64,000 nucleotides of DNA. It comes from Sphingobium sp. TKS. GTDB taxonomy: Bacteria; Pseudomonadota; Alphaproteobacteria; Sphingomonadales; Sphingomonadaceae. A program made the translations under genes and the position numbers. The DNA is taken from assembly GCF_001563265.1 (NCBI RefSeq), contig NZ_CP005083.1, forward strand, positions 251,001-315,000, read 5' to 3'. Numbering within the stretch: the first letter of the stretch is position 1; every line of letters starts with the position of its first letter. The notes under the pieces were generated by a model that was not told the DNA's origin, did no database searches, and saw only the letters and a list, made by a program, of their open reading frames with translations. Positions 7,800 to 28,954 of this stretch are shown piece by piece.

Positions 7800-10700
7800 A
7801 GTGAAGGTCTTCGCCGACGACAGATCGGGCGATCGCCGCCAGATGGGGGTGATGGGTGAAGAACAGCACCTGCGTCGATCGCGCGAGTTCCGCCAGCACC
7901 CTGAAACCGGCCTCGGAACGCTCATCGTCGAAATTGACGAACAAGTCGTCCGCGAGGAAGGGCAGGCGAACACCGGCCGCGATGGATTGCTCGACAGCTG
8001 CGAGGCGAAGCGCGAGAAAGAGCTGGTCCGTGGTTCCCTCGCTCATCGCCCCGACGTCCACCACGGTCCTGCCATCGTCGCGCAACCCCAGGAGCCGTGA
8101 ATTGGGTCCGTCGCTGTCGATCCGCAGCGCCGCATACCGCCCGATCGTCAGCCGGCGGAAGATCTCGCTTGCGCGCAGCAGCATGGGATCCTGATGGCGC
8201 TCGCGATATTGTTCAATCGCCCAGCGTAGCGTGACGGCCTCGGTTCGCTTCAGGATAAAATCTTCGGCAAGAACAGCGAGCTCGGCCCGGGCCTGCTCGG
8301 CATCCGAGGCCGCGTCGGCGGACGAGCCGCTTTGCGCCTCCAGACCGGCAAAGACTCTCCTGGCATCGCCGTGGGCGCTTGCGGCAGTGGCAACCTCATC
8401 GTTGAGCTGGGTCAGCTGCCCCGAGAGCGACTGGATTCGGACAGCCAGACCGTCAGCATCGACGTCTTCCAGGGACGCGACAAGCTCATCCAGTCCCTTG
8501 CCGTCGCCCGCCGCGACGATCGCGGCTTCCGCTTCGCTGACCGCGTGGCGCAGGGCGCGCGCTGCTCGCGAACGCTCGATGGCCGCACCCAGGCCCTGCA
8601 GGTCGGTAGCGCCCGTCTCCTCCAGAAGCGCGGTCAGCGAAGCCCAGGCCGCAGCATGCCGTGCGTCTTCGGCCGCCATCTCAGCGCTTCGGCCGGCAAT
8701 GCTTTCCTCGAGTGCCTCCAGGACGCTTGCGGTCGAGCGCGCCGCCGAGAGCCGGGCCCGCATCCCTTCGAGTAGCGTCACTCCGCCGCCCGAGGCGGCA
8801 ATCCCCAGCCTTTCGGTTAGGGCCGCAACGCTTTCGTCATGTTCACGCGCGTCTCTCGCTATGCCGTCGATGCGTGTCTGCAGGTCTCGCTGCGCGGCAA
8901 TCGCGGCTCTGAGCTCGTCCAGGACGTCGAGAGTTGCCGGAGCGCTGGCTATGTCGAGATCGATGTCCGCTTCGACCAGCAGCGCGCGCCAGGCCTCCAT
9001 CCGCGTCGCCATACTCTCATCGACACGCGTGCGGCGGCGCTGCAGACCTTCCGCATCCTGCCCGATTTGTACGAGTGCGGCCTCGTCGAGTCTGTGCTGC
9101 TCGGCGGCCGCCTCGCCGGCTTGCCGAATCCGTGTGGCGAAGGCGAGCAGCGGCAGGAGGTCTTCTCCCTTGGGCACCGACTCGTCTGCGAGGGCGGCGA
9201 CCAGGCTGGCACGCAATTCATTGCGCCGCGCAACGATCGCCCTGGCATCGTCGTGGGCATCGATTGCCTCCTGATGTGCTGCTTCAGCCGTTTCCCGCTC
9301 GGACACCCAACCGAGGAACCGATTGGGCTCCAACGCCGGAAAGCCCGCCTCCGCCAACTTTCGTGCCCAGCCCGTCAGCGCGCTTTCGCGACGATCGCTT
9401 GCCGCCTGCGCGCGCGTGTCCGCCTGGTCAGCGGCCAGAAGGAGCCTGGTCCGGCGTTGACCCATGACCGTCAGACGGCTCGACTCGTCGGCGGCGGCGT
9501 AGCGGGCATCTCCGCGTTCATCTGCTCGAGCGACTGCCGTCTCATAAGCATCGACAGCTTCATCAGGGGAGGGGAGGGCCATGCCTTGCCGCATGTGCGC
9601 GCGCAGCGGTCGCCAGAACGCGTCGCGCTCGCTTCGAACCGCGGTGATCTCCTCGTCAGCCACCGCAGCGCCCGACGAGAGCTGCTCCATTTCGAGCGAG
9701 AGCGCCTCGGCCTCTTCGCGGGCGCGCGAAGCGGCGTCTGTTGCCCGCTGCAGATCGGTCTCGGCCTCGGCAAGGACGGATCGCACGTCTTCGATTTCGT
9801 GCCGTGCCAGTCTGGGAAGCGCGGCCAGGGCCGATGCGTCCCCGCTCCAGGGCGTGAGCCGAGCGAGCGCCACGTCCAGGCTGGCCGCGGCCCGGTCGGC
9901 TTTGCGCTGCGCCAGTTCGCAGCGCGCGTCCGCATCGGCCCCGAGGGTCCTGGCAAGGTCGATCGCCGTTACGATCGCGGTCAGATTTCCTGTTTGGGGG
10001 CGATCCGCAATCTTCCGCTCGATCGCGACACGCCTTTCAGCCAGGTCCTGCTCACTCTCGTCGATCTGCCGGAGCGCCGCGAGATCCTCGGCATGACCGA
10101 GCGCGATTTCGCGCAGTCTGGAACTTACGATCCGGGTGGGGGGATCGGAGGCGAGCGCGCCGGCTTCGGCGCGGAGCCGGGCGACAAGACCTCCCGATGC
10201 GGATCGCTCCTCGCTCAGACGCGCTAAGTCCTGTTGACCCTTTGTCACCGCGCCCGACGAAGCGATCAGCGCGTCGATTTCGGCGTCGTGGGCGAGGACC
10301 GACGGATCAGGAGAAAGCGCCTCGATCTGTGCCCGGGCTTCGTTCACCAGATTCTGCGCGGCGGCCCTTGCACGCGAAGCGGCCTCCATCTCGGCCATTG
10401 CCGCTTCGGCGGCGTGCTCGCGCTGCGGCCCGATATCAATCGTATCCATGTGGGCGGCAAGCGCCGCGAGATGGTCGCTGCGAAGACGGACGGCAGGCGC
10501 AATCCGGCGGATGCGCTCGAGGCGGCTGACCTCGGCAAGAACTTCGTCGCGCCGCCGCTGAACCTCTTCGAGCATCTGCTGGGCGTCCGCGACCGCGCCT
10601 TTGGCATCGAGCCAAGCCTTCGGCTTGAGGGCCTGGTCCCGGACTGCTCGGGTCTGCGCTTCGAAATCGCGTTGGGCCTGCGTGAAGCTCCGCCTCGCCG

Positions 10701-11229
10701 CGGCGCGTTGTCCCCAGATCGCATCGGCTTCGCTCTCGAGGCGAGCCAATTCGTCCGCAACACCCGTGAGCCCGGAGCCTGCGGCAAAGAGGGCTCGGCC
10801 CAGGTCGTTGCGGGCCTCGACCATGGCCCGCCCGCCCGCTCGCAGGCCATCCTGGTCGAGGCTGAAGGAGAGTGCGAATGTCTCGCGCGTCTGCCCCCGC
10901 AGCATGGCGAGCAGCATAGCTTCGTCGAGGAGACGATCCTCGGCATCGATCAGTGTCCCGGCCGTCCCCTTCTTGCGGCGACAAGCGAAGCTGTGCCCCT
11001 CGTCCTCGAGCACGGCCCCAACGCGCAGCAGGGCGTAGTCGTAGACGAAGTTGTAGGGAGACCGTGCCGGGAAACCGAACAACAGATCGGAGACCGCCGC
11101 AAGCGAGGTCGATTTTCCCGCTTCGTTGGCGCCGTACACCACGTGAAGATCGGGCTCGCCTTGGCGAAAGGAAAGCTCGCAATCCTCGAAACGACCATAA
11201 CGCTCGAGTGACAGGGTGGCGAACCGCAT
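7780..11229 (-). CDS. YhaN-like SMC/SbcC-type AAA ATPase
   Basis: A 1149-residue ATPase of the Rad50/SbcC/YhaN type. Walker A is GANEAGKSTS near residue 33. A long Ala/Arg/Glu-rich region between about 180 and 1000 is predicted coiled coil. The C-terminal ATPase half has the signature SEGTTDQLFLALRLA and Walker B PFLADDLFVNFDDER, followed by a switch His in FFTHHPHLAA. With the nuclease encoded immediately upstream (three bases between stop and start) it should form a Mre11/Rad50-like complex that processes DNA ends. The ANEAGKST form of Walker A points to YhaN rather than classical SbcC. The role on a plasmid may be repair or defence; the sequence does not say which. Confidence 0.88.
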   Translation of the reverse strand: MRFATLSLERYGRFEDCELSFRQGEPDLHVVYGANEAGKSTSLAAVSDLLFGFPARSPYNFVYDYALLRVGAVLEDEGHSFACRRKKGTAGTLIDAEDRLLDEAMLLAMLRGQTRETFALSFSLDQDGLRAGGRAMVEARNDLGRALFAAGSGLTGVADELARLESEADAIWGQRAAARRSFTQAQRDFEAQTRAVRDQALKPKAWLDAKGAVADAQQMLEEVQRRRDEVLAEVSRLERIRRIAPAVRLRSDHLAALAAHMDTIDIGPQREHAAEAAMAEMEAASRARAAAQNLVNEARAQIEALSPDPSVLAHDAEIDALIASSGAVTKGQQDLARLSEERSASGGLVARLRAEAGALASDPPTRIVSSRLREIALGHAEDLAALRQIDESEQDLAERRVAIERKIADRPQTGNLTAIVTAIDLARTLGADADARCELAQRKADRAAASLDVALARLTPWSGDASALAALPRLARHEIEDVRSVLAEAETDLQRATDAASRAREEAEALSLEMEQLSSGAAVADEEITAVRSERDAFWRPLRAHMRQGMALPSPDEAVDAYETAVARADERGDARYAAADESSRLTVMGQRRTRLLLAADQADTRAQAASDRRESALTGWARKLAEAGFPALEPNRFLGWVSERETAEAAHQEAIDAHDDARAIVARRNELRASLVAALADESVPKGEDLLPLLAFATRIRQAGEAAAEQHRLDEAALVQIGQDAEGLQRRRTRVDESMATRMEAWRALLVEADIDLDIASAPATLDVLDELRAAIAAQRDLQTRIDGIARDAREHDESVAALTERLGIAASGGGVTLLEGMRARLSAARSTASVLEALEESIAGRSAEMAAEDARHAAAWASLTALLEETGATDLQGLGAAIERSRAARALRHAVSEAEAAIVAAGDGKGLDELVASLEDVDADGLAVRIQSLSGQLTQLNDEVATAASAHGDARRVFAGLEAQSGSSADAASDAEQARAELAVLAEDFILKRTEAVTLRWAIEQYRERHQDPMLLRASEIFRRLTIGRYAALRIDSDGPNSRLLGLRDDGRTVVDVGAMSEGTTDQLFLALRLAAVEQSIAAGVRLPFLADDLFVNFDDERSEAGFRVLAELARSTQVLFFTHHPHLAAIARSVVGEDLHSECSLA

Positions 11230-11232
11230 CGC

Positions 11233-12486
11233 TCAGTCCCCCTTCGTCAAACGCGAGCGGAGCGCCTGGGCGGCGGTTCCGATGACCGCGTCCCACTTGC
11301 CGTCGCCGGCATAGCGGCGAAGGTCCGCTTCGTCGGCATCGGGGAGCAGGCTCTGCGCCGCGAGCAGGAAGGGCGCAAGGTCCGCGGCCAGCAGTTCGTG
11401 CAGTTGAGGATCGGTGGCGGCCCGATCGATCAAGGCAGCGAGATCGTCGCCGACAATCACCTCACCGGCGGCGGCGGGCTTCGTCACGAGCAGCTTCACT
11501 TTCTCGATGAAGAGATTGGGCGAGATCGAAGCGGCCACGGCGCGCGCGACGTCGCGCAGGTCCGCGGCGCTGTCGATGAGCGCGCCGGCGCTGTCGGTCT
11601 CGCCCGTCAGCACAAGCCGCGTAACGAGCGGCAATCCATCGCCGCCGTGCTGCCACGCTTCAAGAAGCGCCGAGCGCATGCGTTCCGCAATGCTATCGGC
11701 CGGCACGTCGGTACAGTCGATATCGACCGCGAGCCAGCGGATCACATCCAGATCCAATCGATCGATGGAGGAAACCTGACCATCCTCCACGGTGACGATC
11801 ACCGCGCCCTTGGGGCCCGTCTCGCGGATCGTGCGACCCTGGATGTTGCCCGGGAAGACGACATGAGGCGCCTCGCACACGATCTCGTGTTGATGGACAT
11901 GGCCGAGCGCCCAGTAGTCGTATTGCTTGGCTTTGAGATCATCCAGGCTGCAGGGCGCGTAATCGGCGTGGCCCTTCCGGCCTGCCAGCGCGGTGTGCAG
12001 CATCCCGATATTGAAGTGATGCTCCGCAGCGGCGGGATAGGACGGAACGAGATTGTCGGTGACAGCCGGTGTCGAGAAGCTCTGTCCGTGGACCGCGACC
12101 TGGAGCTCGGCAAGCAGATGGGTTTCCGGTCGGCGCGCGCTGAACAGGCGGACATTGGGCGGCCAGGGAATGCTGCGGGTGATGACGGAGGCGGCATCAT
12201 GGTTGCCGGCGAGAAGGAACACCGGGATTTCGGCCCGATCCAGGCGGCCCATGGCGCGGGCGAAATAGAGGCCGGTGCTCATGTCCTTCCACTCACCGTC
12301 GAAGAGGTCGCCAGCGATCACGACGAAATCGACATCTTCGTCGATGGCGCGTTGTACCAGATTGTCGAAAGCCGCGCGGGTGGCTCCTCTTATGTCGTCC
12401 TCGGGCAGACCTTCATATCTCGACAGGCCATGGAGCGGGCTGTCGAGATGAATGTCGGCGGCATGCAGGAAACGAAAATCGCTCAA
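11233..12486 (-). CDS. YhaO/SbcD-like metallophosphoesterase
   Basis: A calcineurin-like phosphoesterase of 417 residues. The metal-binding motifs are all visible: HAADIHLDSPL at residue 8, AGDLFDGEW near 59, LAGNHDA near 97 and ALGHVHQHE near 194. The C-terminal half is the capping and ATPase-binding region. It starts with TTG, preceded by a strong GGGGGAAG. It lies first in an operon with the YhaN-like ATPase and should supply the nuclease subunit of that complex. Confidence 0.88.
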   Translation of the reverse strand: MSDFRFLHAADIHLDSPLHGLSRYEGLPEDDIRGATRAAFDNLVQRAIDEDVDFVVIAGDLFDGEWKDMSTGLYFARAMGRLDRAEIPVFLLAGNHDAASVITRSIPWPPNVRLFSARRPETHLLAELQVAVHGQSFSTPAVTDNLVPSYPAAAEHHFNIGMLHTALAGRKGHADYAPCSLDDLKAKQYDYWALGHVHQHEIVCEAPHVVFPGNIQGRTIRETGPKGAVIVTVEDGQVSSIDRLDLDVIRWLAVDIDCTDVPADSIAERMRSALLEAWQHGGDGLPLVTRLVLTGETDSAGALIDSAADLRDVARAVAASISPNLFIEKVKLLVTKPAAAGEVIVGDDLAALIDRAATDPQLHELLAADLAPFLLAAQSLLPDADEADLRRYAGDGKWDAVIGTAAQALRSRLTKGD

Positions 12487-17202: not shown

Positions 17203-17913
17203 ATGTCCCTTGCGAAACGCACGAGCCGCGATGTCGCCGCCGAAATCACCGACCTCATCATCCGCAAGCTCGAGGAGGGTGTTCCGCCCTGGTCGAGGCC
17301 CTGGCGGCTGAACGGGGCGGGCGGACGCCCGCTGCGTCATTGCGGCACGCCGTATCAGGGCATCAATACGCTTTATCTCTGGGCGCTCGGCGATGCCCAG
17401 GGTTATCGTTCGCGTTACTGGATGACCTGGCGCCAGGCGGAAACGCTAGGCGGGCACGTCCGCAAGGGTCAAACCGGCGCGCTTTCGGTTTATTATTCCT
17501 CGTTCAAGAAGCGTGAGGAGCACCCCGAAACCGGCAAGCAAGTGGAGCGGAGCATCCGGTTCCTGCGCCATTACATCGTGTTCAACGCCGATCAGATCGA
17601 CGGTCTTCCAGCCTATTTCTACCCCTCTGACGAACCGGAGCAGCCTCTGATCCCGTCCGAGCGGCAGGCGGCGATCGACGCCTTCTTCACGGGAATCCCT
17701 GCCGACGTTCGCCATGGCGGAAACCAAGCCTACTTCACACCGACCTTCGATCATATCCAGCTGCCGAACCGAACGGCCTTCCGCAGCATGGATCACTATG
17801 CGTCCACGCGTTGCCACGAGACGGTTCACTGGTCGGGCCATTCCAGCCGACTCGCACGGACCTTCGGCAAGCGCTTCGGCGACAAGGCCTATGCGTTCGA
17901 AGAACTGGTCGCC
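17203..17913 (+). pseudogene. ArdC-like antirestriction gene, 5' fragment
   Basis: This fragment encodes the ArdC N-terminal ssDNA-binding domain (VAAEITDLIIRKLEEGVPPW, then YQGINTLYLW and YWMTWRQAETLGGHVRKGQ) and the start of the zincin-like domain with its HExxH motif in RCHETVHWSGHSSRL. It breaks after AFEELVA, where the 6.9-kb element begins; the frame then runs into element DNA for 12 codons. The missing part (AEIGAGLCCADLGL onward) lies at 24814. Removing the element and one GTCGCC restores the frame exactly. ArdC proteins protect incoming DNA from restriction. Confidence 0.9.
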
Positions 17914-17925
17914 TTATCTGGACAG
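17908..17925. repeat. Left junction of the 6.9-kb element
   Basis: GTCGCC (17908-17913) is repeated at the right junction. It is followed by T and the arm TATCTGGACAG, which is the imperfect inverse of CTGTCAGGATA at the right end (9 of 11). GTCGCC is either a 6-bp target duplication or the core exchanged by a tyrosine recombinase. Confidence 0.75.
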
Positions 17926-17976
17926 TCTGCGCCGCCCGCAACATTGCAGTAAGGTCGGCGATGGACGCCCACGGTA

Positions 17977-18040
17977 GGCAGTAATCAGGCTGGCCGTAGC
18001 GCTGACCCAAGAGCTGGCGGAGGCCAGCCTGATTGCTGCC
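17977..18040. promoter_or_regulatory. Large inverted repeat before the recombinase trio
   Basis: Two 19-bp arms (17977-17995 and 18022-18040) are inverse copies with one mismatch, around a 26-base loop. They lie between the element's left end and the first recombinase. This may be a binding site for the recombinases or a leader hairpin that controls their expression. Confidence 0.6.
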
Positions 18041-18109
18041 GGGCCATCAGGCGCACCGGTGTGAAGGTCAGCTTCCGGGTGGGGGGTCCGGGGGGAGGGT
18101 TTCGCGCCG

Positions 18110-19459
18110 GTGTCGATCATTACTGTTTGCGAGCGCCGCGAGGCCAAGGGCCTTGATGCGCATGTGCCGCTGATCCTGCGGGACGATGCGCTCTATGATC
18201 CCGATCTGGATCGCTTCTTTCTCGACCTGCCGCTGTCGGGGGTCCGCTCGCGGCACTCGCTTCGCGCCTACGCCTATGATGTTGCGGTCTGGCTTCGCTT
18301 TCTCGATGCCTGCGGCAAGACCGTGTGGGCTGCGACCCGCGACGATGTCGATGCCTATCATCGTGAGCGACGCCGCGACGAGGCCGATCACCGGATCACG
18401 GCGGCAAGCTGGAACCGGGCTGTCGCCAGCCTCGATCGCCTCTACCGCTGGGGCGAGCAGCAAGGGCTGATCGCCGACGCGCCGTTCAGCCGCCGCGCCG
18501 TGTGGCGACCGGCGCAAGGTGGCCGTCGTGGCATGATCGCGGCGCGCAACGACGCCTATGAACGTGTCGCCAGGCGGTCGGATGTGCGGTTCGTCACGAT
18601 GGACGACTACCACATTTTCCGCGAGGTCGGCCTGCGCGGCCTCGCCCCGGACGGCACCGAGCGCCCCGGCGCTCGCGATCGCAACGGGCTGCGCAACGCG
18701 CTGTTCGCCGACCTTCTCGTCACCACTGGCCTGCGTCTTGAAGAGGCGTCGGGCCTGCTCGCCGATGAGCTTGCGGCCATCGATCACGACCACGATCAGG
18801 CTCAGCAGCTTTGGCTGCGCCTGCCGCCGCCGCTCACCAAGGGCGACCGGGGACGCAGTGTGCTGGTCCCGCGTCGGCTGCTGCGTCAGATCGCCGCCTA
18901 TGTCGCCGTCGAACGCGCCGCAGGCGTGACCAAGTTCGCCGCGCGCGACGGCGCGGCCAAGCTCGAACGACCGATCCCTGTCACCCGCGCCGGTCTCGAC
19001 CGCATGCGCGATGTCTGCACCCCAGAGGAACGATGCCGCCTGATCCTGTGCGACGAGGATGGACCGCCCCACGAGCCGGCGGCGCTATGGCTGACCGAGG
19101 TAGGGCAGCCTGTTCGCCCCAACTCGTGGGAGGTGATCTTCACCCGTGCCTGCAAGCGGTGCGAGGAGAACGGTTTCCCGCTGTCGATCAGTCCCCACCA
19201 GCTTCGTCACACCTTCGCAGTCCATATGCTCGCCTTGCTGATCCAGCAGCGGCTGCGCGAAGCGGCATTGCCGGCGGGGCCGGTGGAGAGCTACCGGCTG
19301 ATCCTGGGCGACCCGCTGCAACAGGTGCAACGTCTGCTCGGCCACGCGAGCCTCACCACCACCTATATCTACCTCGATCATATCGCGACGCGCGCCGATA
19401 CAGTGGACGCGGCCGTCGAGGAGCTGCTCGCGCTGCTGCCGGGACCGCAGGGCGCATGA
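18110..19459 (+). CDS. Tyrosine recombinase 1 of the 6.9-kb element
   Basis: A 449-residue integrase. An N-terminal SAM-like core-binding domain (SLRAYAYDVAVWLRFLDACG) precedes a complete catalytic domain: Arg in TTGLRLEEAS near residue 209, HQLRHTFA near 363, LGHASLTTTYIYLDH near 409 with the nucleophilic Tyr. It starts with GTG after a G-rich ribosome-binding site and overlaps the next gene by ATGA. All catalytic residues are present, so it is probably an active strand-exchange enzyme of the trio. Confidence 0.9.
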   Translation: MSIITVCERREAKGLDAHVPLILRDDALYDPDLDRFFLDLPLSGVRSRHSLRAYAYDVAVWLRFLDACGKTVWAATRDDVDAYHRERRRDEADHRITAASWNRAVASLDRLYRWGEQQGLIADAPFSRRAVWRPAQGGRRGMIAARNDAYERVARRSDVRFVTMDDYHIFREVGLRGLAPDGTERPGARDRNGLRNALFADLLVTTGLRLEEASGLLADELAAIDHDHDQAQQLWLRLPPPLTKGDRGRSVLVPRRLLRQIAAYVAVERAAGVTKFAARDGAAKLERPIPVTRAGLDRMRDVCTPEERCRLILCDEDGPPHEPAALWLTEVGQPVRPNSWEVIFTRACKRCEENGFPLSISPHQLRHTFAVHMLALLIQQRLREAALPAGPVESYRLILGDPLQQVQRLLGHASLTTTYIYLDHIATRADTVDAAVEELLALLPGPQGA

Positions 19460-21243
19460 GCGGGCATCCCCGCAAGGGCCGGCCTGTCGCTTTCGCGCCG
19501 ATCACGCCGGAGTCCGTGCAGCCCGATGCTGTGCTCGGCCTCAAGTTCACGATCGAGGCACGGCATGGCGGAACGGTCCTGATCGATATGATTGGGCTCG
19601 TTCCTCGCCCACTCGCCATCGCCTTCGCGGGCGCGCTACGTCGGTCAGCGGCGCTCGGCGGCCCCATCGGTGCGGCCAGCGTCATCAAGCAGTATGTAAA
19701 TGCCTACCGCCTGTTCTTCGCCTGGCTTGGCGATGACGCGCTGAACGTGGCTGGCGTCAGCGACCTGCGCGCAGTCCATATCGATGGGTTCGCCTCCGCG
19801 CTCGGACAGCGCGGGATGGGCGCGATCCACCGGCACATAACGGTCGGCAAGATCATCAACACATTGCGCGCGATCGAGGCAGACCGGCCCGATCGGATCG
19901 CGTCCGACCTGCATGAGCGGCTGCGCTACACGCTGGCCACATCGGCGGGCCGCTCGACCCCGCGCGATGCTTATAGCCCCTTCGTCGCCCGCGCGTTGCG
20001 CGACGCCGCGAGGACCGATGTCGAAGCGATGTTCCGCCGTCTCGGCGCCGACGACCGGACCGATGAGGGCGACCCGGTCATCGCCAGCGCGCGCGCCGAT
20101 GTCGAAGCGATCATCGCGCGGCAGGGCTTTATCGTCGCAGACCAGCCCGCGCTGAAGAGCCTCTATTTCATGCGCATGCGGCGCGCATTGCCGATCAGCA
20201 CGCTCATCGACGACCTGCATGGCCGCCATCACCTGCTTGCGCGCGATCTGCCGGCGCTGCTCGTGTTGCTCACGCTCGATACCGGCCTCGAGCCCGAGTG
20301 CCTGAAGACGCTGACCGTGGATTGTCTCACCAACCCCCATGCCGGCACGGTGGAGCTGCGCTATCTCAAGCGCCGCGCTCGCGGCGCCGAGCACAAGAGC
20401 ATGCGCGTCCGCGACGGCGGTGGTGGCACGCCTGGCGGTCTTATTCGTCGCCTGATCGAGGCCACGGCGACTGCCCGCACGCATCTAAACGACGATCGTA
20501 TTTGGGTTTATCACAACGCTGGCGGCCTGCGGGCAGGTATCCGCCACCCGACGGAACGGATCGATGCCTGGGTGGCGCAGAACGATATTGTCGATGACGA
20601 CGGCAAGCCGCTCCACCTGCTGCTCTCCCGGCTCCGCAAGACCCACAAGGCGCTATGGTACACCAAGACCGAGGGGCATATGGCCCGCTTCGCGGTCGGC
20701 CACTCGCGCGAGGTAGCGGCGCGCCACTATGCTGATCTGCCGTCGCTCCGGCCCCTGCACGAGACGGCCGTCGCCGACGCCTTCCGCGCAGCGGTCGCCG
20801 CCGCGATGCCGACCGTGCTTCCGCCCACCGCCGAGCAGGCGTTGCGCAAAGCGCCCGATCAGGCCGAGCCGCTGATGCCGCTGGCTACCGTGGGTCCGTT
20901 GCTCGACGGCGAACAGGATGTCTGGCTCGCCGCCTGCGCGGGCTTCCATAACAGTCCCTTCGCCGAGGCCGGTTCGCCCTGTGCGCAGCCCTTCTGGGGC
21001 TGCCTTGATTGCCCTAACGCCGTCATCACCGCGCGCAAGCTCCCCGCGATCCTGGCTTTCCTCGTCTTCGTCGAAGAGCAGCGGCTGAGCCTGCCCGCGA
21101 CCGACTGGGCGGCCAAGTTCGGCCGCGTCCATGCCCGCATCACCGCCCAGGTCGTGCCGGCCTTCTCCGATGCCGTCATCGCCGATGCGCGCCGGCAGAT
21201 GGAGAGCGAGCGGCTTTATCTGCCGCCGGAGGCACGCGCATGA
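19456..21243 (+). CDS. Tyrosine recombinase 2 of the 6.9-kb element, divergent active site
   Basis: A 595-residue protein chosen to start at the ATG overlapping the previous stop. The core-binding part (YVNAYRLFFAWLGDDAL) is near residue 80. In the catalytic domain the first box reads TLDTGLEPECLKTL, with Glu where the conserved Arg normally stands. The second box is LLSRLRKTHKALWY, and the end is FAVGHSREVAARHYAD with His and Tyr kept. A C-terminal Cys cluster (GSPCAQPFWGCLDCPNA) after residue 500 could bind zinc. It may be a structural or regulatory partner rather than a full catalyst. Confidence 0.85.
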   Translation: MSGHPRKGRPVAFAPITPESVQPDAVLGLKFTIEARHGGTVLIDMIGLVPRPLAIAFAGALRRSAALGGPIGAASVIKQYVNAYRLFFAWLGDDALNVAGVSDLRAVHIDGFASALGQRGMGAIHRHITVGKIINTLRAIEADRPDRIASDLHERLRYTLATSAGRSTPRDAYSPFVARALRDAARTDVEAMFRRLGADDRTDEGDPVIASARADVEAIIARQGFIVADQPALKSLYFMRMRRALPISTLIDDLHGRHHLLARDLPALLVLLTLDTGLEPECLKTLTVDCLTNPHAGTVELRYLKRRARGAEHKSMRVRDGGGGTPGGLIRRLIEATATARTHLNDDRIWVYHNAGGLRAGIRHPTERIDAWVAQNDIVDDDGKPLHLLLSRLRKTHKALWYTKTEGHMARFAVGHSREVAARHYADLPSLRPLHETAVADAFRAAVAAAMPTVLPPTAEQALRKAPDQAEPLMPLATVGPLLDGEQDVWLAACAGFHNSPFAEAGSPCAQPFWGCLDCPNAVITARKLPAILAFLVFVEEQRLSLPATDWAAKFGRVHARITAQVVPAFSDAVIADARRQMESERLYLPPEARA

Positions 21244-23402
21244 CCATACCCGCCCATGCCCAAGAGCCTGCCTTCGACGATCGCCCCGTGCTGGCGAGCG
21301 CGCCGCTCAAGGAGGGCCACGCCCGCGAGGAGCTGTCTCGCGTCGGCGACCCGAGCTGGGATCTCGGTCTCGCCGTATTCCGCGAGAACGCCCGGCGCTG
21401 CCACGTCACCGTGCATTTCGACGTGCTCGAACATGCCGATGTGCAGGCGGCGATGCGCGCCTATCTCTACGCCCGTCTCAACGTCGATCTTCCCGGCTAC
21501 CGCCCGAAGCTGCCGCCGGCGAGCATTCGCCAGGCATTCAACCGTGCCCGCCGGTTCTTCGCCTTCGCCCGTGAGCGGCTCGGACGGCTCGACGTTTCCC
21601 GTATCGATCAGGCATTGGTCGATGCCTATGCCCGGCACCTTCGTGCCGATCCGGCCCGGCGACCCGTCATCGTCGGCCACCTCCTCGAAGTGGTCCCCGA
21701 TCTCTATCACTATCGTGACCACCTCGCTGGCGGAGGCCTTGCATTCGAGCCCTGGGCCGGACAGGCGCCCGCCCGCGTCGCGGGCTACCGGCATGTCCGG
21801 GAGAACCGCACGCCGCGGTTCCCGGAAGAGGTCATCGCCGCGCTGCTCGCATGGTCGTTGCGCTACGTCACCGTCTTCGCTGACGACATTCTCGCAGCCC
21901 GTCGCGAGCTTGATCGGCTCGAAGCGCGCCGGGATCGTCTCGTCGCCGCCGACTCCGGCCTCCCGGACGCTGATCGCCGGCAACGTCGCCGCACCCGCCT
22001 GAAGGCCTATTTCGGTCGCCGACGCAGCGAGGGGCGCGGCGCACCGATCTGGGGCACCGCTCATAACGGCAAGCTGCGCGTCGACCCCAACACCGGCGCC
22101 GTGACCCCACCGATCAACGCCCATCTCCTGCATCTCCATGCCGGGATCGACGTGCAGGCCGAGCCAGGCGCGCATCTCCTGCTGACCGGCGGTGAAGCGA
22201 GGTTGATCGACGCAGTGGCGGCCGAGCTGGGGGTAGAGGTCGGCGGCATGGACACGCCGATCTCGATCGATCCCGAGAGCGGTCGGCCATGGCGCGAGCG
22301 CTTCGACGCGAAGACTCTCGCACACGAGGAACGGATGCTCCAGGCCGCCGCCTATATCGTGTGCGCCTACCTGACCGGCATGCGCGACTGCGAGGTGCAG
22401 GCGATGCGGCGCGGGTGTCTCTCTATCGCGCGCAGTGAGGACGGCCTGATCGAGCGGCATCGCATCCGATCGACCATCTACAAGCGCCGGGCGGCCGTGG
22501 GCGAGGCGGCGAGCTGGGTGACGATCGAGCCGGTCGCCGATGCGATCACGGTGCTCGAACGCCTGTCGGCAGGACCGGCGCGCGCCAGCGGCAGCGATAC
22601 GCTCTGGCCGGTGCTGCGCGCGAGCGCCGTCTCCAAAACGCATCTGTCGAGCGAGGTGGTCCGTCAGCTCAACACCTTCCGCGATCACCTCAACACCGCC
22701 TTCGGCAGCCCCGATATGCCGGTCATCCCGCCCGGTCCCGATGGCAAGCCGTGGCGCATCACGACGCGGCAGTTCCGGCGCACGATCGCGTGGCACATCG
22801 CCAACCGTCCGTTCGGCACCATCGCCGGCATGATCCAGTACAAGCACGCCTCGGTCGCCGCGTTCGAAGGCTATGCCGGGACCAGCGCATCGGGGTTTCG
22901 CGCCGAGGTCGAGGCGCAGCGCCGGCTCGGTCAGACTGATGACCTGCTGGACTATTTCGACCGGCGTCAGAGCGGCGCATCGCTTGGCGGGCCGGCGGGA
23001 CCGCGTATCGGGCGGACGCTCGACGATGCCGCCGTTCAACTCGGGCCATTGCCCGCCATGATCGCCGATCGCGCCCGCCTGCGCGTCATGCTCGCCAGCG
23101 TCGCGCGCACCTTCCATGTCGGTCCGCTCGCGGATTGCTTCTTCGATCCTGCAACCGCGCTCTGCCTCAAGCGCGTGACAACCCCCGATCCCGCGCAGCC
23201 ACTCACCGCCCTGTGCGAGCCGACCCGCTGTCCCAACGCCTGCATCACCGCCCGGCACAGGCCGGCCTGGGAACGCGCGGCGGCCGATGCCAGGGCGCAT
23301 CTACGCGAACGGCGCATCTCCGATCTCCAGCGTCAAGCTCTCCAGCGCGAGCTCGATCGCCTGACCGCGGTGATTGCCGGGATCGATCCTCCCGCGCCGT
23401 AG
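21240..23402 (+). CDS. Tyrosine recombinase 3 of the 6.9-kb element
   Basis: The largest member, 720 residues, overlapping the second by ATGA. A long N-terminal region contains an Arg-rich helical hairpin near residues 215-265. The catalytic blocks are AYLTGMRDCEVQAM near 378, TTRQFRRTIAWHIA near 508 and YKHASVAAFEGYAG near 533. His of the usual HxxR is Gln here, a frequent change. The C-terminus has a second Cys cluster (ALCEPTRCPNAC) like that of the second recombinase, followed by a helical tail. The shared Cys cluster suggests the two interact similarly with DNA or each other. Confidence 0.85.
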   Translation: MTIPAHAQEPAFDDRPVLASAPLKEGHAREELSRVGDPSWDLGLAVFRENARRCHVTVHFDVLEHADVQAAMRAYLYARLNVDLPGYRPKLPPASIRQAFNRARRFFAFARERLGRLDVSRIDQALVDAYARHLRADPARRPVIVGHLLEVVPDLYHYRDHLAGGGLAFEPWAGQAPARVAGYRHVRENRTPRFPEEVIAALLAWSLRYVTVFADDILAARRELDRLEARRDRLVAADSGLPDADRRQRRRTRLKAYFGRRRSEGRGAPIWGTAHNGKLRVDPNTGAVTPPINAHLLHLHAGIDVQAEPGAHLLLTGGEARLIDAVAAELGVEVGGMDTPISIDPESGRPWRERFDAKTLAHEERMLQAAAYIVCAYLTGMRDCEVQAMRRGCLSIARSEDGLIERHRIRSTIYKRRAAVGEAASWVTIEPVADAITVLERLSAGPARASGSDTLWPVLRASAVSKTHLSSEVVRQLNTFRDHLNTAFGSPDMPVIPPGPDGKPWRITTRQFRRTIAWHIANRPFGTIAGMIQYKHASVAAFEGYAGTSASGFRAEVEAQRRLGQTDDLLDYFDRRQSGASLGGPAGPRIGRTLDDAAVQLGPLPAMIADRARLRVMLASVARTFHVGPLADCFFDPATALCLKRVTTPDPAQPLTALCEPTRCPNACITARHRPAWERAAADARAHLRERRISDLQRQALQRELDRLTAVIAGIDPPAP

Positions 23403-23532
23403 ACCACCCCGGCTGTTGGCGGAGTCCTGCGCCGGTCGGCGCGCCCGCGCAACGGCTTCGCCGTCCTTCGCTTCGCTGCGGCCCTGACGGGTGCGCGAGC
23501 CCCCCTGTGCCCGGCGCGAACGGGCCTCCGCC

Positions 23533-23551
23533 GCCGGGGATGGTCCCCGGC
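23533..23551. terminator. Hairpin between the trio and the second ardC
   Basis: A perfect 8-bp stem (GCCGGGGA and TCCCCGGC) with a three-base loop lies 20 bases before the ardC start. No U-tract follows, so it may shape translation of the next gene rather than end transcription. Confidence 0.4.
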
Positions 23552-23571
23552 GCGAGAACGGAGAACAGATC

Positions 23572-24438
23572 ATGTCAGCCTCACCACGCTCAGACGTCTA
23601 CGCTCGCGTCACGCAAGCGATCGTCGACGCCATCGAAGCCGGCACCGGCACCTGGCGCATGCCGTGGCATCATTCCGGCGCCGACGTCACCCGCCCGACC
23701 AACGTCGCCAGCGGCAAGCCGTATCGCGGCATAAATACGGTCTCGCTCTGGGCGGCCGCCTATGGCAGCGGCTATGCGAGCGGGGTCTGGGGCACCTATC
23801 GCCAGTGGCAGGCGCTCGGCGCGCAGGTCCGCAAGGGCGAGCACGCCAGCCTCGGCGTCCTCTGGAAGGAGTTTCGCGCGAAGGGTGACGAAGCCAGCGA
23901 CGATGATGGCGACCACCGACGGCTTTTCGCCAAGGCGTTCAGCCTGTTCAACGCCGATCAGATCGATGGCTATGCGCCCGAACCGGGGCCGGTCCTGCCC
24001 GAGAGCGAACGCCTCGCCGCCGCCGAAGCCTTCATCGCCGCGCTCGGCATCGATACCGTCTACGGCTCGGCCAGCGCCTATTATCACATCGCCGAAGACC
24101 GCATCCACATGCCGGATTTCAGCGCCTTCCACGACGCCCACGGCTTCTACGCCACCCATATTCACGAGGCAGCTCATGCCAGTGGCGCAGCCCATCGGCT
24201 CGACCGGGATTTCAGCACCAAGTGGACCAAGCACGCGCTCGCCATGGAGGAAGCGACCGCCGAGCTGACCGCATCGTTCCTGCTCGCCGATCTCGGGATC
24301 GCGCACGAACCGCGACCCGATCACGCGGCCTACATCGCCTCCTGGCTGCAACTGCTCAAGGACGAGCCCCGGGCGATCTTCACCGCGGCGAGCAAGGCGC
24401 AGGCGGCGGCCGACTGGATGCACACCCGGCAGCCATGA
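23572..24438 (+). CDS. ArdC-like antirestriction protein carried by the element
   Basis: A complete ArdC-like protein of 288 residues. The N-terminal ssDNA-binding domain runs from YARVTQAIVDAIEAGTGTW through YRGINTVSLW to QVRKGEHASLG. The zincin-like domain has HExxH in THIHEAAHASGAAH near residue 198, a downstream Glu in AMEEATAELTASFLL, and the usual ending AASKAQAAADWM. I chose the ATG with GGAGAAC upstream, not an in-frame codon 27 residues earlier. It differs clearly from the split ardC around the element. As cargo it would shield the element's host plasmid from restriction. Confidence 0.88.
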   Translation: MSASPRSDVYARVTQAIVDAIEAGTGTWRMPWHHSGADVTRPTNVASGKPYRGINTVSLWAAAYGSGYASGVWGTYRQWQALGAQVRKGEHASLGVLWKEFRAKGDEASDDDGDHRRLFAKAFSLFNADQIDGYAPEPGPVLPESERLAAAEAFIAALGIDTVYGSASAYYHIAEDRIHMPDFSAFHDAHGFYATHIHEAAHASGAAHRLDRDFSTKWTKHALAMEEATAELTASFLLADLGIAHEPRPDHAAYIASWLQLLKDEPRAIFTAASKAQAAADWMHTRQP

Positions 24439-24801
24439 TCCAGCAGCAACCAACGCTGAGCGGCCGATCCCTCGCGGGCTCGGCCGCTTCGTCGCGCATG
24501 GCGATGCGCGGGCTTCGCCCGCTCACCAGCGGACGCCGCTGGCGCGGCGGCGCTGATTTTTCGGGCCTCCCTCGATGCGGGTCTGGTCGGCGCTCCCTGC
24601 TAGGCCCGCCACGGCGCGCCGCAAGCCCGGCTTCGCCGAGCTGCTCCATTTCATTTCGCCCCTCCGGGTGCGGCCCGCCGCTTGCGCGGGCCTCTCCGGT
24701 CGTTCTCGCCGCCCACCCCCGCCTCGGGGGAGCCATGGGGTTTTTGGGCAGTGCTGGAGGCACCGATGGTTTTCACCTTCCAACCGCCATTTTTCGCTGG
24801 A
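24439..24801. other. Gene-free right part of the 6.9-kb element
   Basis: No open frame here has a start, a domain or coding-like periodicity that I trust. The stretch is very GC-rich with several short palindromic words (for example CCGCCTCGG and CCAGCGG). It may hold binding sites for the recombinases. Confidence 0.5.
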
Positions 24802-24819
24802 CTGTCAGGATATGTCGCC
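24802..24819. repeat. Right junction of the 6.9-kb element
   Basis: The arm CTGTCAGGATA and one T are followed by the second GTCGCC (24814-24819), after which the ardC reading frame resumes with GAGATC. Confidence 0.75.
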
Positions 24820-25029
24820 GAGATCGGGGCGGGGCTCTGCTGTGCTGACCTTGGTCTGCCCAACGTCCTCCATGACAGTCATGCGAGCTATGTGGCGCAT
24901 TGGCTCGGTATCCTCCGCGGCGACAAGACCGCGATCATCCACGCTGCCGCCAAGGCTGAACAGGCTTTCGCGTATCTCAAAAGCTTCGGCGCGGCGAGCA
25001 AGGCGCAGCCGGCAGCCGACCGGATGCAC
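24814..25029 (+). pseudogene. ArdC-like antirestriction gene, 3' fragment
   Basis: In frame from GTCGCC this reads VAEIGAGLCCADLGL, then SYVAHWLGILRGDKTAII and AAAKAEQAFAYL, the normal C-terminal helices of ArdC. It continues the fragment ending at 17913. After FAYLKSF comes a second copy of the family's terminal motif (AASKAQPAADRMH), almost identical in DNA to the end of the element-borne ardC. The natural stop codon is not found; the frame runs on over the end of the cysteine-synthase-like gene. Confidence 0.85.
24991..25029 (+). repeat. 39-bp near-copy of the end of the element-borne ardC
   Basis: These 39 bases match 24386-24424 with three mismatches, in direct orientation (both begin GCGGCGAGCAAGGCGCAG). 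The repeat lies outside the element, fused to the 3' fragment of the host ardC. It suggests past recombination or gene conversion between ardC copies. Confidence 0.65.
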
Positions 25030-25058
25030 GTCCATCGGGGCCACCCCCACGCCGAGGT

Positions 25059-25985
25059 TCAGTATTTCAGGCCGGTATCACAAAGCACCGTTGCCACGAC
25101 GGCATCAGCCGTCAACCGCCCCGATGCCAGCAGCTTTGCCGCGGCGCAGACGTTCGCAGCGGCAGAATAGCCGACGTACAGGCCCTCGCGATGGGCCAGA
25201 GTACGCCGCCACTCTTCAGCTTCATCATCGCTGATGCCGACACTCATATCCATCAGCGACGGATCCCAGTGCGGCGGAACCGTGCCATAACCGATGCCCT
25301 GGAGTTTATGCCGGGCGTCGAGCACCGGTTCTCCGGCCAGCGGCCGCGCGTTCAGCGGTTCGACAGCGGCGCAGACCGTACCGGGATTGGCGCGCTTCAA
25401 CGCCTTTGCAACGCCCACGAAGGTGCAGCCCGTGCCGACCGCTGCAACCCATCCGTCGACCGGGCCACCGAACTGCGCCAGGATCTCCGGGCCTGTCGTG
25501 GTCTCGTGCGCTGCGATCCCCTCTGCAGCGTTGAACTGATCGACGTAGAAACCGTCACGCGCCCGGGCGATCGCGCAAGCCGCCTGTGCGGCAGCATTGA
25601 CATCGGAACCCGTCACCTGGCCCGGGCTTCCATCCACCTGGGCGATGAGCACCACTTCGGCGCCGAGTCCTTCGAGCATCTTCGCTCGCGCCGGACTGTT
25701 GCCTGCCGACATCGTGACGACGAGGGGATGGCCGAGCGCGGCGCATGCCACCGCCAGTCCGGCGCCCATGTTTCCGCTCGTCATTTCCACGACCGGCATT
25801 CCCGGCTTCAGCCGGCCATCCTCTCTTGCGGCAAGCAGGATCGCCTTGGCGGCACGGTCCTTCACACTTCCCCCGGGCAGCAGGAACTCGGCCTTGGCGA
25901 TGATGCGACCAGGACCCGTGTAGATGCGATCCAGTGCGATCAAAGGCGTGCCGCCGATTATCTCAATGGCCGACGCGGCGAGCAT
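25059..25985 (-). CDS. Cysteine synthase-like PLP enzyme
   Basis: A 308-residue fold-type II PLP enzyme. The PLP lysine lies in PGGSVKDRAA near residue 42, the substrate loop is TSGNMGAGLA near 69, and the phosphate-binding glycines are VGTGCTFVG near 183. The C-terminus DTGLKY corresponds to the usual DSGLKY of cysteine synthases. Such enzymes replace the acetyl group of O-acetylserine with sulfide or a related nucleophile; members may prefer other substrates. GGAGAAG precedes the ATG. It reads towards the ardC remnant and has no partner gene nearby. Its position on a plasmid among mobile elements suggests acquired cargo. Confidence 0.82.
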   Translation of the reverse strand: MLAASAIEIIGGTPLIALDRIYTGPGRIIAKAEFLLPGGSVKDRAAKAILLAAREDGRLKPGMPVVEMTSGNMGAGLAVACAALGHPLVVTMSAGNSPARAKMLEGLGAEVVLIAQVDGSPGQVTGSDVNAAAQAACAIARARDGFYVDQFNAAEGIAAHETTTGPEILAQFGGPVDGWVAAVGTGCTFVGVAKALKRANPGTVCAAVEPLNARPLAGEPVLDARHKLQGIGYGTVPPHWDPSLMDMSVGISDDEAEEWRRTLAHREGLYVGYSAAANVCAAAKLLASGRLTADAVVATVLCDTGLKY

Positions 25986-26420: not shown

Positions 26421-28951
26421 GTGCGCCGTTGCGGCGCTGAAATGGAGTATCAGTGATGATGAGGTAAGTTGAGAATGCCTCTGCTCGCCGGACTAACCTC
26501 GGGCCTCACAAGGTCTGAAATCCCGAAAGGGACGGGGAACAATAGCATGTTCGGAAAAGGCCAGATGCGTCTTAGTCGCAAATGGAGGCGATGACGGTCA
26601 GGGCAAGGTGCGTATGGTGAAGGCTACACTGCTTAAATCCCAGTCTGCAGCAATCTATATAGCGATACTGGCGAAAGCGACTGTCACGCCAGGTCCGGAT
26701 GATGACAGCGGTCTCATGTCTTGGCCGCCTGTTTCTCAGCCCATCCGGTGCGCCTCTCGTCGAGGGGTTTAGTGGACGAACGGGACACCTAACCGCGCCG
26801 CATCTCCATTCAGCGTAACTACGGGATGCCCTAAACAGGCGGCTTCTGCCGGCCTGCATGGGTACGGAGCCGCCATATTACTCAAATGCCCGGGGTAATG
26901 CCCGGGACATCGACCTCTTCGGAGGCGGCGGTGCAACTGTATAAGGTCTCGAGCGATCGGGCCGAAAGCGGGGAAGACCGGGGGAAGGGCGGCAGCTGTG
27001 ATTCTTCAACCACCGATCATGGGGTGTGCTGATGCTGCCAGAAACTGTGAAAGGCCGGTTGGAGGCCATTCCGGCGCTCGTTGCGTCGGGCAAAAGGGTG
27101 AATGGACTCTATCGTCTGATGGGGTCTCGCCTCCTTTGGGAGGAGGGGCTCCAGAAGATCGGATCCAACAAGGGTGCGATGACGCCGGGTATTGACGGCG
27201 AGACCTTCGCGGACTTCGGACCGGAAGACCTCGACCCGATTATCGCCAGCGTGACGGCAGGGACCTATGATCCCAAACCAGTGCGTCGGGTGTTTATCCC
27301 GAAAGGCAAGGGCAAACGGCGTCCGCTGGGCATTCCCACGCGCGACGACCGCCTCGTTCAGGAAGTGGCGCGGCAACTGCTCGAACGGATCTATGAACCG
27401 GTGTTCTCGAACGCCTCCCATGGATTCCGGCCGGGCCGGTCGTGTCATACGGCGCTTGAACACGTCAAAGCCGTATGGACGGGGGTGAAATGGCTCGTAG
27501 ATGTGGATGTCGCGGGGTTCTTCGAGAACATCGACCACGACATCCTCCTGCGGCTGTTGCGGAAAAGGATCGATGACGAGAAATTCATCGGCTTGATCGG
27601 CAGCATGCTTAAGGCGGGTGTTATGGAAGACCGGGTTCACACCCGGACCTACAGCGGCACTCCGCAGGGCGGTATCGTCTCTCCAATCTTGGCCAACATC
27701 TACCTCCATGAACTCGATATGTTCATGGCGGAACGGATCGCGGCTTTCGAGAGGGGGAAGGTCCGTGCCACGAACCCGGAATATGGGCGACTGGCTGGGC
27801 GCATCCAGAAACAACGGAAGCGCGTCACCATGCTGCGGGCCAAAGACAATGTCGACGAGGTGAAGGTTGCGGCCTCCTTGGCCAAAATCCAAACCTTACT
27901 GCCGCAAAAGCGGTCCATCCCGTCGAGAGACGCGATGGACCCCGGTTATCGCCGACTTCGTTACTGTCGCTACGCGGACGACTTCATGATTGGGGTTATC
28001 GGTAGCAAGGAGGATGCACGAAGCGTGTTCGCCGAAGTCAGGGCATTCCTGACCGAGGCGCTGGCGCTCACGGTGTCCGAGGAGAAAAGCGGTATCCGCA
28101 AGGCGAGCGATGGAGCCGCCTTCCTTGGATATGAGGTCCGCACATATACGACACGCCAACGGGTTGTCCGGAGCCGACAAGGTTCCGTCAGCTTCCTTCG
28201 TAGGCCGCCGTCGGAAGTGATGCAGCTGCATGTCCCTTGGGAGAAGGTCCACGCGTTCGCTTCTGCAAAAGGTTATGGTGATCTGTCGGTGTTGAAGCCG
28301 CGTCATCGTAGCCTGCTGCTCAGCTGCAGCGACGTTGAGATCGTCCTAGCTTACAACGCCGAATTGCGGGGTTTTGCGAACTACTATGCTCTCGCCAAGG
28401 ATGTGAGCTTCAAGCTGAACAGGCTTGAGTTTCTCCAGCGGTGGAGCTTGTTCAAGACCTTGGCCAGCAAGCACAAAACCAATGTGCGAGCGGTCTTGGC
28501 CCGCATGAGGACGGGGCAGGAATTCACCATCGGCTACGACGTCGATGGCCAGCCCCGATCGGTCAAAGTCTGGAAACTGGCTCATCTGAAACGTGATCCG
28601 GCCACCTCGTCCAGGATTGATATCCAGCCTTGGACGCAGGTGTTCACCCACTCACGTACGGACTGGGTTGATCGTCAGAATGCCAAGCAATGCGAGGCTT
28701 GCGGTCGATCCGATGTTCCGTGTCAGGTGCACCATATCCGGGGGATGGCCGATGTTTCGCACCGCGGTTTTGTCGTGAGAATGAAGGTGGCACGCGCCCG
28801 CAGGACGGTGGTCCTGTGCGAGCAATGCCACTGGGATACTCACAGAGGCCGCCTGCCCGATCTACGGCAAAGTGATGGTTCGTCACAGTGGAGAGCCGCA
28901 TGCGGTGAAAGCTGCACGTGCGGTTCGGCGGGGGGATCAGGGCTGACTCCA
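26421..28951 (+). mobile_element. Group II intron with reverse transcriptase
   Basis: The 5' end is GTGCGCCGTT, matching the GTGYG consensus. About 600 bases of ribozyme precede the reverse-transcriptase gene. Near the 3' end is a 34-base domain V (28893-28926, starting GAGCCGCATGCGG and ending GTGCGGTTC), then a short domain VI hairpin with a bulged A about seven bases before the end. Joining exon 1 to the DUF6927-like frame requires the 3' border right after base 28951; the AY consensus would put it one base later, so the border is uncertain by one or two bases. Confidence 0.88.
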
Positions 28952-28954
28952 TGA
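27032..28954 (+). CDS. ltrA: Group II intron reverse transcriptase/maturase with HNH nuclease
   Basis: A multi-domain intron protein. RT blocks: RPLGIPTRDDRLVQEVARQ, HGFRPGRSCHTAL, DVDVAGFFENIDHD, YSGTPQGGIVSPILANIYL and the catalytic YADD in RYCRYADDFMIG. The maturase (X) domain follows near residue 430. The C-terminus is an HNH endonuclease: CEACG, CQVHHIRGM and VLCEQCHWDTHRGR. It should splice the intron and move it by retrohoming. The ORF has no stop before domain V; its last 20 residues are translated from domains V and VI and it ends in the exon. The start is ATG, with an in-frame GTG two codons upstream. Confidence 0.92.
   Translation: MLPETVKGRLEAIPALVASGKRVNGLYRLMGSRLLWEEGLQKIGSNKGAMTPGIDGETFADFGPEDLDPIIASVTAGTYDPKPVRRVFIPKGKGKRRPLGIPTRDDRLVQEVARQLLERIYEPVFSNASHGFRPGRSCHTALEHVKAVWTGVKWLVDVDVAGFFENIDHDILLRLLRKRIDDEKFIGLIGSMLKAGVMEDRVHTRTYSGTPQGGIVSPILANIYLHELDMFMAERIAAFERGKVRATNPEYGRLAGRIQKQRKRVTMLRAKDNVDEVKVAASLAKIQTLLPQKRSIPSRDAMDPGYRRLRYCRYADDFMIGVIGSKEDARSVFAEVRAFLTEALALTVSEEKSGIRKASDGAAFLGYEVRTYTTRQRVVRSRQGSVSFLRRPPSEVMQLHVPWEKVHAFASAKGYGDLSVLKPRHRSLLLSCSDVEIVLAYNAELRGFANYYALAKDVSFKLNRLEFLQRWSLFKTLASKHKTNVRAVLARMRTGQEFTIGYDVDGQPRSVKVWKLAHLKRDPATSSRIDIQPWTQVFTHSRTDWVDRQNAKQCEACGRSDVPCQVHHIRGMADVSHRGFVVRMKVARARRTVVLCEQCHWDTHRGRLPDLRQSDGSSQWRAACGESCTCGSAGGSGLTP
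28893..28926 (+). ncRNA. Group II intron domain V
   Basis: Exactly 34 bases: lower stem GAGCCG paired with CGGTTC, the AAAG internal segment in GGTGAAAGC, and a GNRA-like cap. This is the catalytic core of the ribozyme and the most diagnostic part of the intron. Confidence 0.88.

Follow-up and report, generated by a model that had tools for sequence, protein, structure and literature searches.

A putative family of site-specific transposons with three recombinase-type genes, inserted in the plasmid antirestriction gene ardC of Alphaproteobacteria

In a 64,000-nucleotide stretch of the Sphingobium sp. TKS genome (contig NZ_CP005083.1, positions 251,001 to 315,000; hereafter the window), an element of 6900 bp, counted from arm to arm (17914-24813), splits an ardC gene after the codons for EELVA and carries three genes of recombinase type, A, B and C, together with a complete ardC of its own. 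We propose, with a probability of roughly 0.8, that it represents an as yet unnamed family of site-specific transposons in Alphaproteobacteria and that it would form a circle containing a 6-bp spacer from its left flank and insert in ardC such that the 6 bp of the target come to lie on the left and those of the donor on the right. On this reading the antirestriction genes of plasmids are home to a widespread transposon family, whose 6-bp footprints would distinguish mother from daughter copies in finished genomes, so that the direction and route of plasmid jumps become partly readable. The link between target gene and spare gene also makes a general idea, already remarked for the element SE-6283 and bcp, testable across many lineages.

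The interrupted gene consists of a 5' part (17203-17913, plus strand), which ends in EELVA, matches the Pfam domains ArdcN and MPTase-PolyVal, and runs into 12 element-encoded codons before a stop at 17950-17952, and a 3' part (24820-25170, plus strand), identified by a Pfam MPTase-PolyVal match (positions 81-126) and by continuity with an uninterrupted homologue. The borders lie where the original prediction had placed them, with GTCGCC on the plus strand at both the left end (attL, 17908-17913) and the right end (attR, 24814-24819), and removal of the element restores the ardC frame (EELVA followed by EIGAGLCC), as had also been predicted. The uninterrupted ardC is found on plasmid pSCLO_3 of Sphingobium cloacae (L001): the window's flanks, joined without either 6-mer, match it in 1188 of 1188 bases, and the single gap of exactly 6 bases corresponds to one GTCGCC, versus two plus 6900 bp in the window. 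The left 6-mer thus consists of the target's own bases, whereas the right one is read, from the rule found for the family, as a probable donor-site footprint, which is invisible in the window copy because both 6-mers are equal. Plasmid pDB-2 (L002) is also empty, is 95.6% identical, and has GTCGCG at the site. The intact ArdC protein has 353 residues, and the site lies behind EELVA (from residue 233), 28 residues past the start of the HETVH motif at residue 205.

The left arm (TTATCTGGACAGTCTGC..., 17914-17937, plus strand) and the right arm (...GACTGTCAGGATAT, 24790-24813, plus strand) conform to the consensus patterns that define 75 complete elements. The ends form an imperfect inverted repeat around six variable bases, in which the right GACTGTCAGGATAT and the reverse-complemented left GACTGTCCAGATAA match at 11 of 14 positions. 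Imperfect terminal repeats had been predicted, with length and matches understated at 9 of 11, and the proposed 8-base centre T-GTCGCC-T has to be replaced by a spacer of 6 bp. A core site of the kind used by tyrosine recombinases is present, as had been supposed; it is 6 bp long, variable and asymmetric, not a constant GTCGCC. With up to 4 mismatches allowed, the window contains the left-end 19-mer at a single position. In 12 genomes picked for carrying a B protein, the exact end patterns identified 29 left and 27 right ends, with matches in 11 of the 12, and a reversed control pattern gave none, so the element ends are far beyond chance.

The flanking 6-mers were compared among copies. Left and right 6-mers differ in 54 of 74 distinct complete copies and are equal in the other 20, including that of the window (82 complete copies, less eight duplicates; copies cut at one end were not used). 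One target, GDQAYAFEELVA, is empty in four genomes and occupied in six, and in all ten GTCGCC is found, within the empty site or to the left of the element; the right 6-mers of two occupied copies, L004 and L195, are CGGGCC and GTGGCC. L003, inserted in the same ardC as the window element (its 3' part is 99% identical to the L001 protein), has GTCGCC on the left and TGCGCC on the right, and the TGCGCC allele is native in the empty ardC genes L229 and L236. Three pairs in which different elements occupy the same target, with both flanks 98-100% alike (L009/L194, L011/L195 and L025/L040), have identical left 6-mers in all three cases and different right 6-mers in all three. Empty sites or second insertions reveal the target's own 6-mer for six asymmetric insertions, and it is on the left in all six (L003, L004, L194, L195, L025 and L040). 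By these comparisons the left 6-mer is the target's own and the right 6-mer is foreign. This asymmetry rules out both a constant GTCGCC core and a simple target duplication, the two roles that the original prediction had considered for this sequence.

The foreign 6-mer can often be traced. In the 12 genomes that contain two or more distinct complete copies, 24 copies are asymmetric, and for 16 of these the right 6-mer recurs as the left 6-mer of a different copy in the same genome; 4.4 such matches are expected, and none of 50,000 shuffles reached 16. An earlier labelling, which kept apart both G122 copies, one G114 copy and the fourth copy of the window's genome, all merged in the figure above, gave 15 of 23 (4.3 expected), or 12 of 20 (3.0 expected) without GTCGCC; this 15 of 23 holds with R. 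dicambivorans and G114 merged, as they have two copies with identical flanks, and becomes 14 of 23 (3.6 expected) when they are counted as two genomes. Chains can be read as L039 to L038 to L040 in Sphingobium sp. 15-1, L193 to L194 in S. baderi and L199 to L200 in Sagittula, their direction being given by the empty/occupied comparisons and same-target pairs, which place the target 6-mer on the left. Three copies in the window's genome are identical over 6900 bases and lie in three different ardC genes on two contigs, next to a fourth copy of about 67% identity. Including the three pairs that these form, 17 of 19 same-genome pairs compared over 6.5-9.4 kb show no mismatches, one shows a single mismatch, and one differs by one base in length. 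The element has apparently been active recently. Several assemblies contain contigs of about element length (L041, 6897 bases; L052, 6896; L027, 6900), as expected if several copies collapse in assembly.

Most insertions are in ardC. The 5' flank could be read for 100 copies, duplicate records among them, and encodes ArdC in 94. The other six comprise L077, with ArdC on the 3' side, and five copies with the same left arm at other sites: L008 and L076 share one site, L022 and L102 share another, and L106, whose right flank is cut, has a left flank that is not ArdC and in our reading resembles a group II intron end. Over 69 copies the ardC site has the consensus GARGARHTN-NNNGCN-GARNT, with two exceptions at the first codon and one at the GA after the core. 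This corresponds to the codons for EEL(V/I)AE, and the pattern could reflect these codons alone. The L022 site, GAAGAACTG-CGGGCC-GAGCTG, lies inside an unrelated gene of 57 codons and shows the same pattern, from which we infer that it is DNA, and not the ardC codons alone, that is recognised.

The cargo ardC of the window element (23572-24438, plus strand) is complete, encodes 288 residues and matches Pfam ArdcN (3.5e-37) and MPTase-PolyVal (7.3e-43). When copies are grouped into 48 element lineages, 35 are known to reside in ardC and 34 of these carry ArdC, the exception being the lineage L021/L087/L088. None of the three lineages sited elsewhere carries it (Fisher test against 34 with and 1 without, p = 0.0005, omitting lineages with target unknown, 8 with ArdC and 3 without, and treating lineages as independent, which they are not fully). 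The classes total 49 because one lineage falls in two of them; L106 was counted as target unknown. In the exceptional Rhizobium elements, two genes (193 and 183 residues; L021, 11932-13057) replace ArdC, the first overlapping the stop of C. The stop codon of the carried ArdC lies exactly 56 bp from the right end for 29 ArdC hits in lineages of different orders (e.g. L007 and L091), as if the carried gene and the right end had been kept as a unit; other copies have arsenic or unidentified genes between ArdC and the right end. Arsenic resistance genes occur as extra cargo inside the R. dicambivorans copies L025 and L195.

Two of the three lineages outside ardC carry a homologue of their own target, as L022 and L102 are inserted in the 57-residue gene and carry a 57-residue homologue (12196-12369 in L022). 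Between target and cargo protein the alignment score is 56 in L022 (2000 shuffles: mean 26.4, highest 47), indicating moderate homology, and 44 in L102, which is not clear of its shuffles (highest 50). The two genes also share a leader (88% identity in L102, aligned in 116 columns; 75% in L022, aligned in 119), whose first 16 bases occur in both loci only at the target and cargo genes (up to 3 mismatches) and once in L101. The shared leader is, as a sequence comparison, stronger support for homology than the protein score; it could also be a common plasmid regulatory repeat. For L076 no homologue of its own target was recognised in the element. SE-6283, which inserts in bcp and carries a bcp homologue, is described as a case of this kind and provides a precedent for a spare gene (PMC9345347). 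It is a tentative idea, with the odds clearly against it, that a spare copy of the broken gene is a family rule that decides habitat, that the change of target from ardC to the 57-residue plasmid gene in Agrobacterium and Rhizobium changed the spare, and that in the ardC lineage ArdC may replace a factor of the Srap/TnpC/GinD type in recombination. The N-terminal domain of ArdC is of the single-stranded-DNA-binding type.

These observations fit a mechanism in which the recombinases would circularise the element by joining its ends around a 6-bp spacer that is a copy of the left flank; the circle would then insert at GARGARHTN-NNNGCN-GARNT. The target would keep its own 6 bp at the left end while those of the donor arrive at the right end, whereby each copy would carry the 6-bp address of its previous home. 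Passage from plasmid to plasmid would follow from the presence of ardC on many conjugative plasmids. Insertion would break the resident ardC and at the same time bring a complete one, the carried ArdC presumably replacing the one that is lost. By analogy, A and C may exchange strands and B may hold or order the complex. The element would probably be copied out rather than cut out, given the coexistence of mother and daughter copies, although excision from a sister plasmid would look the same.

Several points weigh against the proposed transposon. Its ends, target, empty site, 6-mer asymmetry and identical copies on several replicons are read directly from aligned sequences, but the circle and the transposition itself are deduced, none having been observed. 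In the window's genome every copy is flanked by GTCGCC left and right, so that no asymmetry is visible there. Left 6-mers differ in L191/L192, L199/L201 and L026/L196 despite 5' flanks that are 96-97% alike; these are probably different ardC alleles, because the 3' flanks of the three pairs are only 53-65% alike or unread. L004/L005 and L190/L192 match reciprocally, and the members of such a pair cannot both be mother and daughter; for 8 of the 24 asymmetric copies, among them the two from S. herbicidovorans, the genome contains no mother. L021/L087/L088 reside in ardC without carrying ArdC, and no fourth gene resembling Srap, TnpC or GinD was recognised next to C.

Cut-and-paste integration at a shared 6-bp core, in the manner of phages or Tn916, could leave either 6-mer on either side. 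Integration at a core within coding sequence is ordinary for tyrosine recombinases, and the 20 of 74 copies with equal 6-mers, including the window copy, would be compatible with it. We nevertheless consider it improbable, as the known target 6-mer is on the left in every one of the six asymmetric insertions examined and the right 6-mer commonly has its counterpart at a copy that the same genome still contains. The copies with equal 6-mers could equally be accommodated by a plain 6-bp target-site duplication that was later scrambled by homologous recombination between copies, and the reciprocal pairs L004/L005 and L190/L192 do look like a swap. Such a swap would exchange the ardC halves as well, whereas L009/L194, L011/L195 and L025/L040 differ only in the right 6-mer with flanks 98-100% alike; moreover, the right 6-mer of L003 differs from those at the empty sites L001 and L002. 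Scrambled duplication is accordingly given very little credence, and the site-specific transposon with a left-flank spacer is retained as the best explanation.

Gene A (18110-19459, plus strand; 449 residues) encodes a tyrosine recombinase (Pfam Phage_integrase, 2.6e-12) in which the catalytic set R209, K244, H363, R366, H412 and Y421 is conserved. Gene B (19456-21243, plus strand; 595 residues) encodes a protein assigned to the recombinase fold from its catalytic residues and fold matches; it lacks the first arginine (E279) and the histidine of HxxR (S391), and keeps K305, R394, H416 and Y425. Gene C (21240-23402, plus strand; 720 residues) encodes a long recombinase-like protein with R382, K415, R510 (replacing the histidine), R513, H536 and Y545. 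Because the structure model of C has low confidence over residues 521-670 and its best match in the Protein Data Bank (PDB) is weak (Cre, E = 0.18), C was judged from its motifs only. B and C had no match in Pfam, NCBIfam or PHROGs at E-values up to 0.1, a PDB sequence search gave nothing credible for either, and neither the trio nor the cargo ArdC matched a PADLOC defence model. In annotated genomes the central protein of the family is mostly unnamed or called hypothetical.

We rate the element as a new family of the same kind as strand-biased circularizing elements (SEs), GInts (ginABCD genomic islands) and Tn554, set apart from GInts and Tn554 by their published descriptions, and its comparative features suggest that it works like an SE. 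SE-6283 and SE-6945 are described with a 6-bp spacer and imperfect inverted ends, with the donor's left 6-mer at attR and the target's own at attL (which for the present element rests on comparative evidence), and with the gene order intA-tfp-intB, in which the middle protein is non-catalytic and the third has a long N-terminus; the residence of SE-6283 in bcp with a bcp homologue parallels that of the element in ardC with ArdC (PMC9345347). According to the SE accounts, the 6 bp flanking the element on the left go into the circle and become attR of the new copy, while the target keeps its 6 bp as attL (PMC9345347, PMC10214605). Differences are that B keeps the tyrosine, the histidine and one arginine, whereas the RHRY motif is reported missing from Tfp (PMC10214605), and that the hosts are Alphaproteobacteria and the target is ardC. 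With no accessory gene found and no homology shown for its proteins, the element was not filed as an SE. NF040692 (library name recomb_assoc), which is presumably GmtX and equivalent to Srap, was counted as the srap counterpart: it had no match in the window's genome, and the model matched 5 of 398 genomes of the phylum. In the five NF040692-bearing loci (L209-L213), which are not the type elements of SEs, the profiles of B and C had no match and that of A a weak one (2e-5).

GInts likewise have three recombinase-type genes, one without the first arginine, insert site-specifically, and are inferred to use a 6-nucleotide staggered exchange; by their description the arginine is missing from the third protein, not the second, and their ssb insertions leave the gene product unaltered, whereas the present insertion breaks the gene (PMC5385486). 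Judged from annotation only, no counterpart of ginD was seen, and ArdC or other genes follow C. For Tn554 and its relatives the descriptions include site-specificity, one long and one ordinary recombinase, and a 6-bp footprint from the donor's left side (PMC10214605); here gene B is additional, and no TnpC-like gene was recognised or annotated in the element lineage. It is unlikely, though less so than the two integration alternatives weighed above, that the element is strictly speaking a GInt or an SE whose divergence put it beyond the reach of the searches. The order of recombinase, recombinase-fold protein and long recombinase, the 6-bp spacer and the imperfect inverted ends are SE-like, and Bardaji et al. 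mention alphaproteobacterial gin homologues (PMC5385486). On the other hand, B and C have neither an NCBIfam match nor similarity to the five NF040692-bearing loci, no Srap-like gene was recognised, and the SE survey reported no Tfp/Srap homologues and no ginC-ginD blocks in Alphaproteobacteria (PMC10214605). A new family remains our preferred assignment.

Distant kin extend the comparison (E-values computed for a small set). L245, on plasmid pTB1 of Sphingobium yanoikuyae, has the same gene order plus a small fourth gene (A 5e-72, B 6.5e-90, C 1e-107), and L244, on Nocardioides pNOCA01, matches B (2e-17), C (6.5e-50) and an A fragment only (5e-7); genes of 122 and 148 residues overlap the stop of C in L245 and L244, respectively. 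No comparable terminal repeats were found in L245. Arsenic resistance genes also lie downstream of the pTB1 trio (L245, 9816-15446). A 2012 survey tabulates Tn554-related pairs on pNOCA01 and on pNL1 of N. aromaticivorans, and may in those entries have touched the present family (PMC3414803); pNL1 carries the element in ardC (L023).

Recombinase in trio (RIT) elements also have three adjacent, overlapping recombinase genes, and some RIT-type trios are found in the same ardC (L003-L005). They are defined by three catalytic recombinases of similar size and 34-bp terminal repeats (PMC10214605). The RIT-type proteins in L003 have 406, 314 and 331 residues by annotated spans (405, 313 and 330 less the stop), and they use another site within ardC. 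Membership was ruled out by the sizes of 449, 595 and 720 residues, the absence from B of the first arginine (R-I) and the HxxR histidine, and inverted ends of about 14 bp. The B and C profiles, moreover, miss the RIT trios that share these ardC genes (best E = 0.12), and that of A matches them weakly (E = 4e-4). The original prediction that the trio is unrelated to RIT in detail and belongs to a separate, little-described family with cargo is supported by these results and by the lack of library matches for B and C. No clear kinship to SE-like loci was found for the proteins, but in its behaviour the element resembles SEs and Tn554, which the original prediction had not considered.

The same genes and ends were found at 75 loci with both ends, mostly in Alphaproteobacteria. 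When genome contigs were scanned with a B alignment, a relative was encoded at 133 loci; the 80 of these that were retained comprise 48 with both ends, 20 with the left only, 7 with the right only and 5 with neither. Most single-ended loci are cut contigs or longer than the stretch covered. Loci with these genes between unrelated flanks and without repeats, which would have spoken against the predicted element, were largely not seen, as four of the five without either end are contigs cut near the expected end. The exception, L096 from Pseudochrobactrum (B at 10001-11782), shows neither end although it includes 10 kb upstream of B, and may be a degenerated copy or a variant form that ends differently; L079 has a truncated B and the right end only. 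B matched 154 plasmid records, including those of Sphingobium, Agrobacterium, Rhizobium, Streptomyces and Rhodococcus, and 18 of 397 sampled genomes of the taxonomic family, some weakly or partially. In a protein collection, 594 relatives of B and 657 of C were found among 7994 candidates scored in each. No published description of the element family was found in open PMC papers, subscription journals and preprints being outside the search.

Other elements also interrupt ardC. RIT-type trios lie in the same ardC genes (L003, 4036-7180; L004, 966-3887; L005, 907-3829) at residue 209, the last histidine of HETVH, so that a pair of unrelated trio elements exploits two different conserved motifs in a single gene. 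Reverse transcriptase/maturase genes annotated as of group II intron type interrupt ardC after about residue 128 in L006 (1839-3668) and L023 (5162-7063), and before about residue 106 in L190-L192. In the window, an open reading frame of 642 codons (27026-28954), 2 kb beyond the target ardC, gives the sequence impression of a group II intron reverse transcriptase, and its positional counterpart in L003 carries the annotation reverse transcriptase domain-containing. On the opposite strand, a gene of the cysteine synthase family (25059-25985, minus strand; L001 annotation) overlaps the target ardC at its 3' end.

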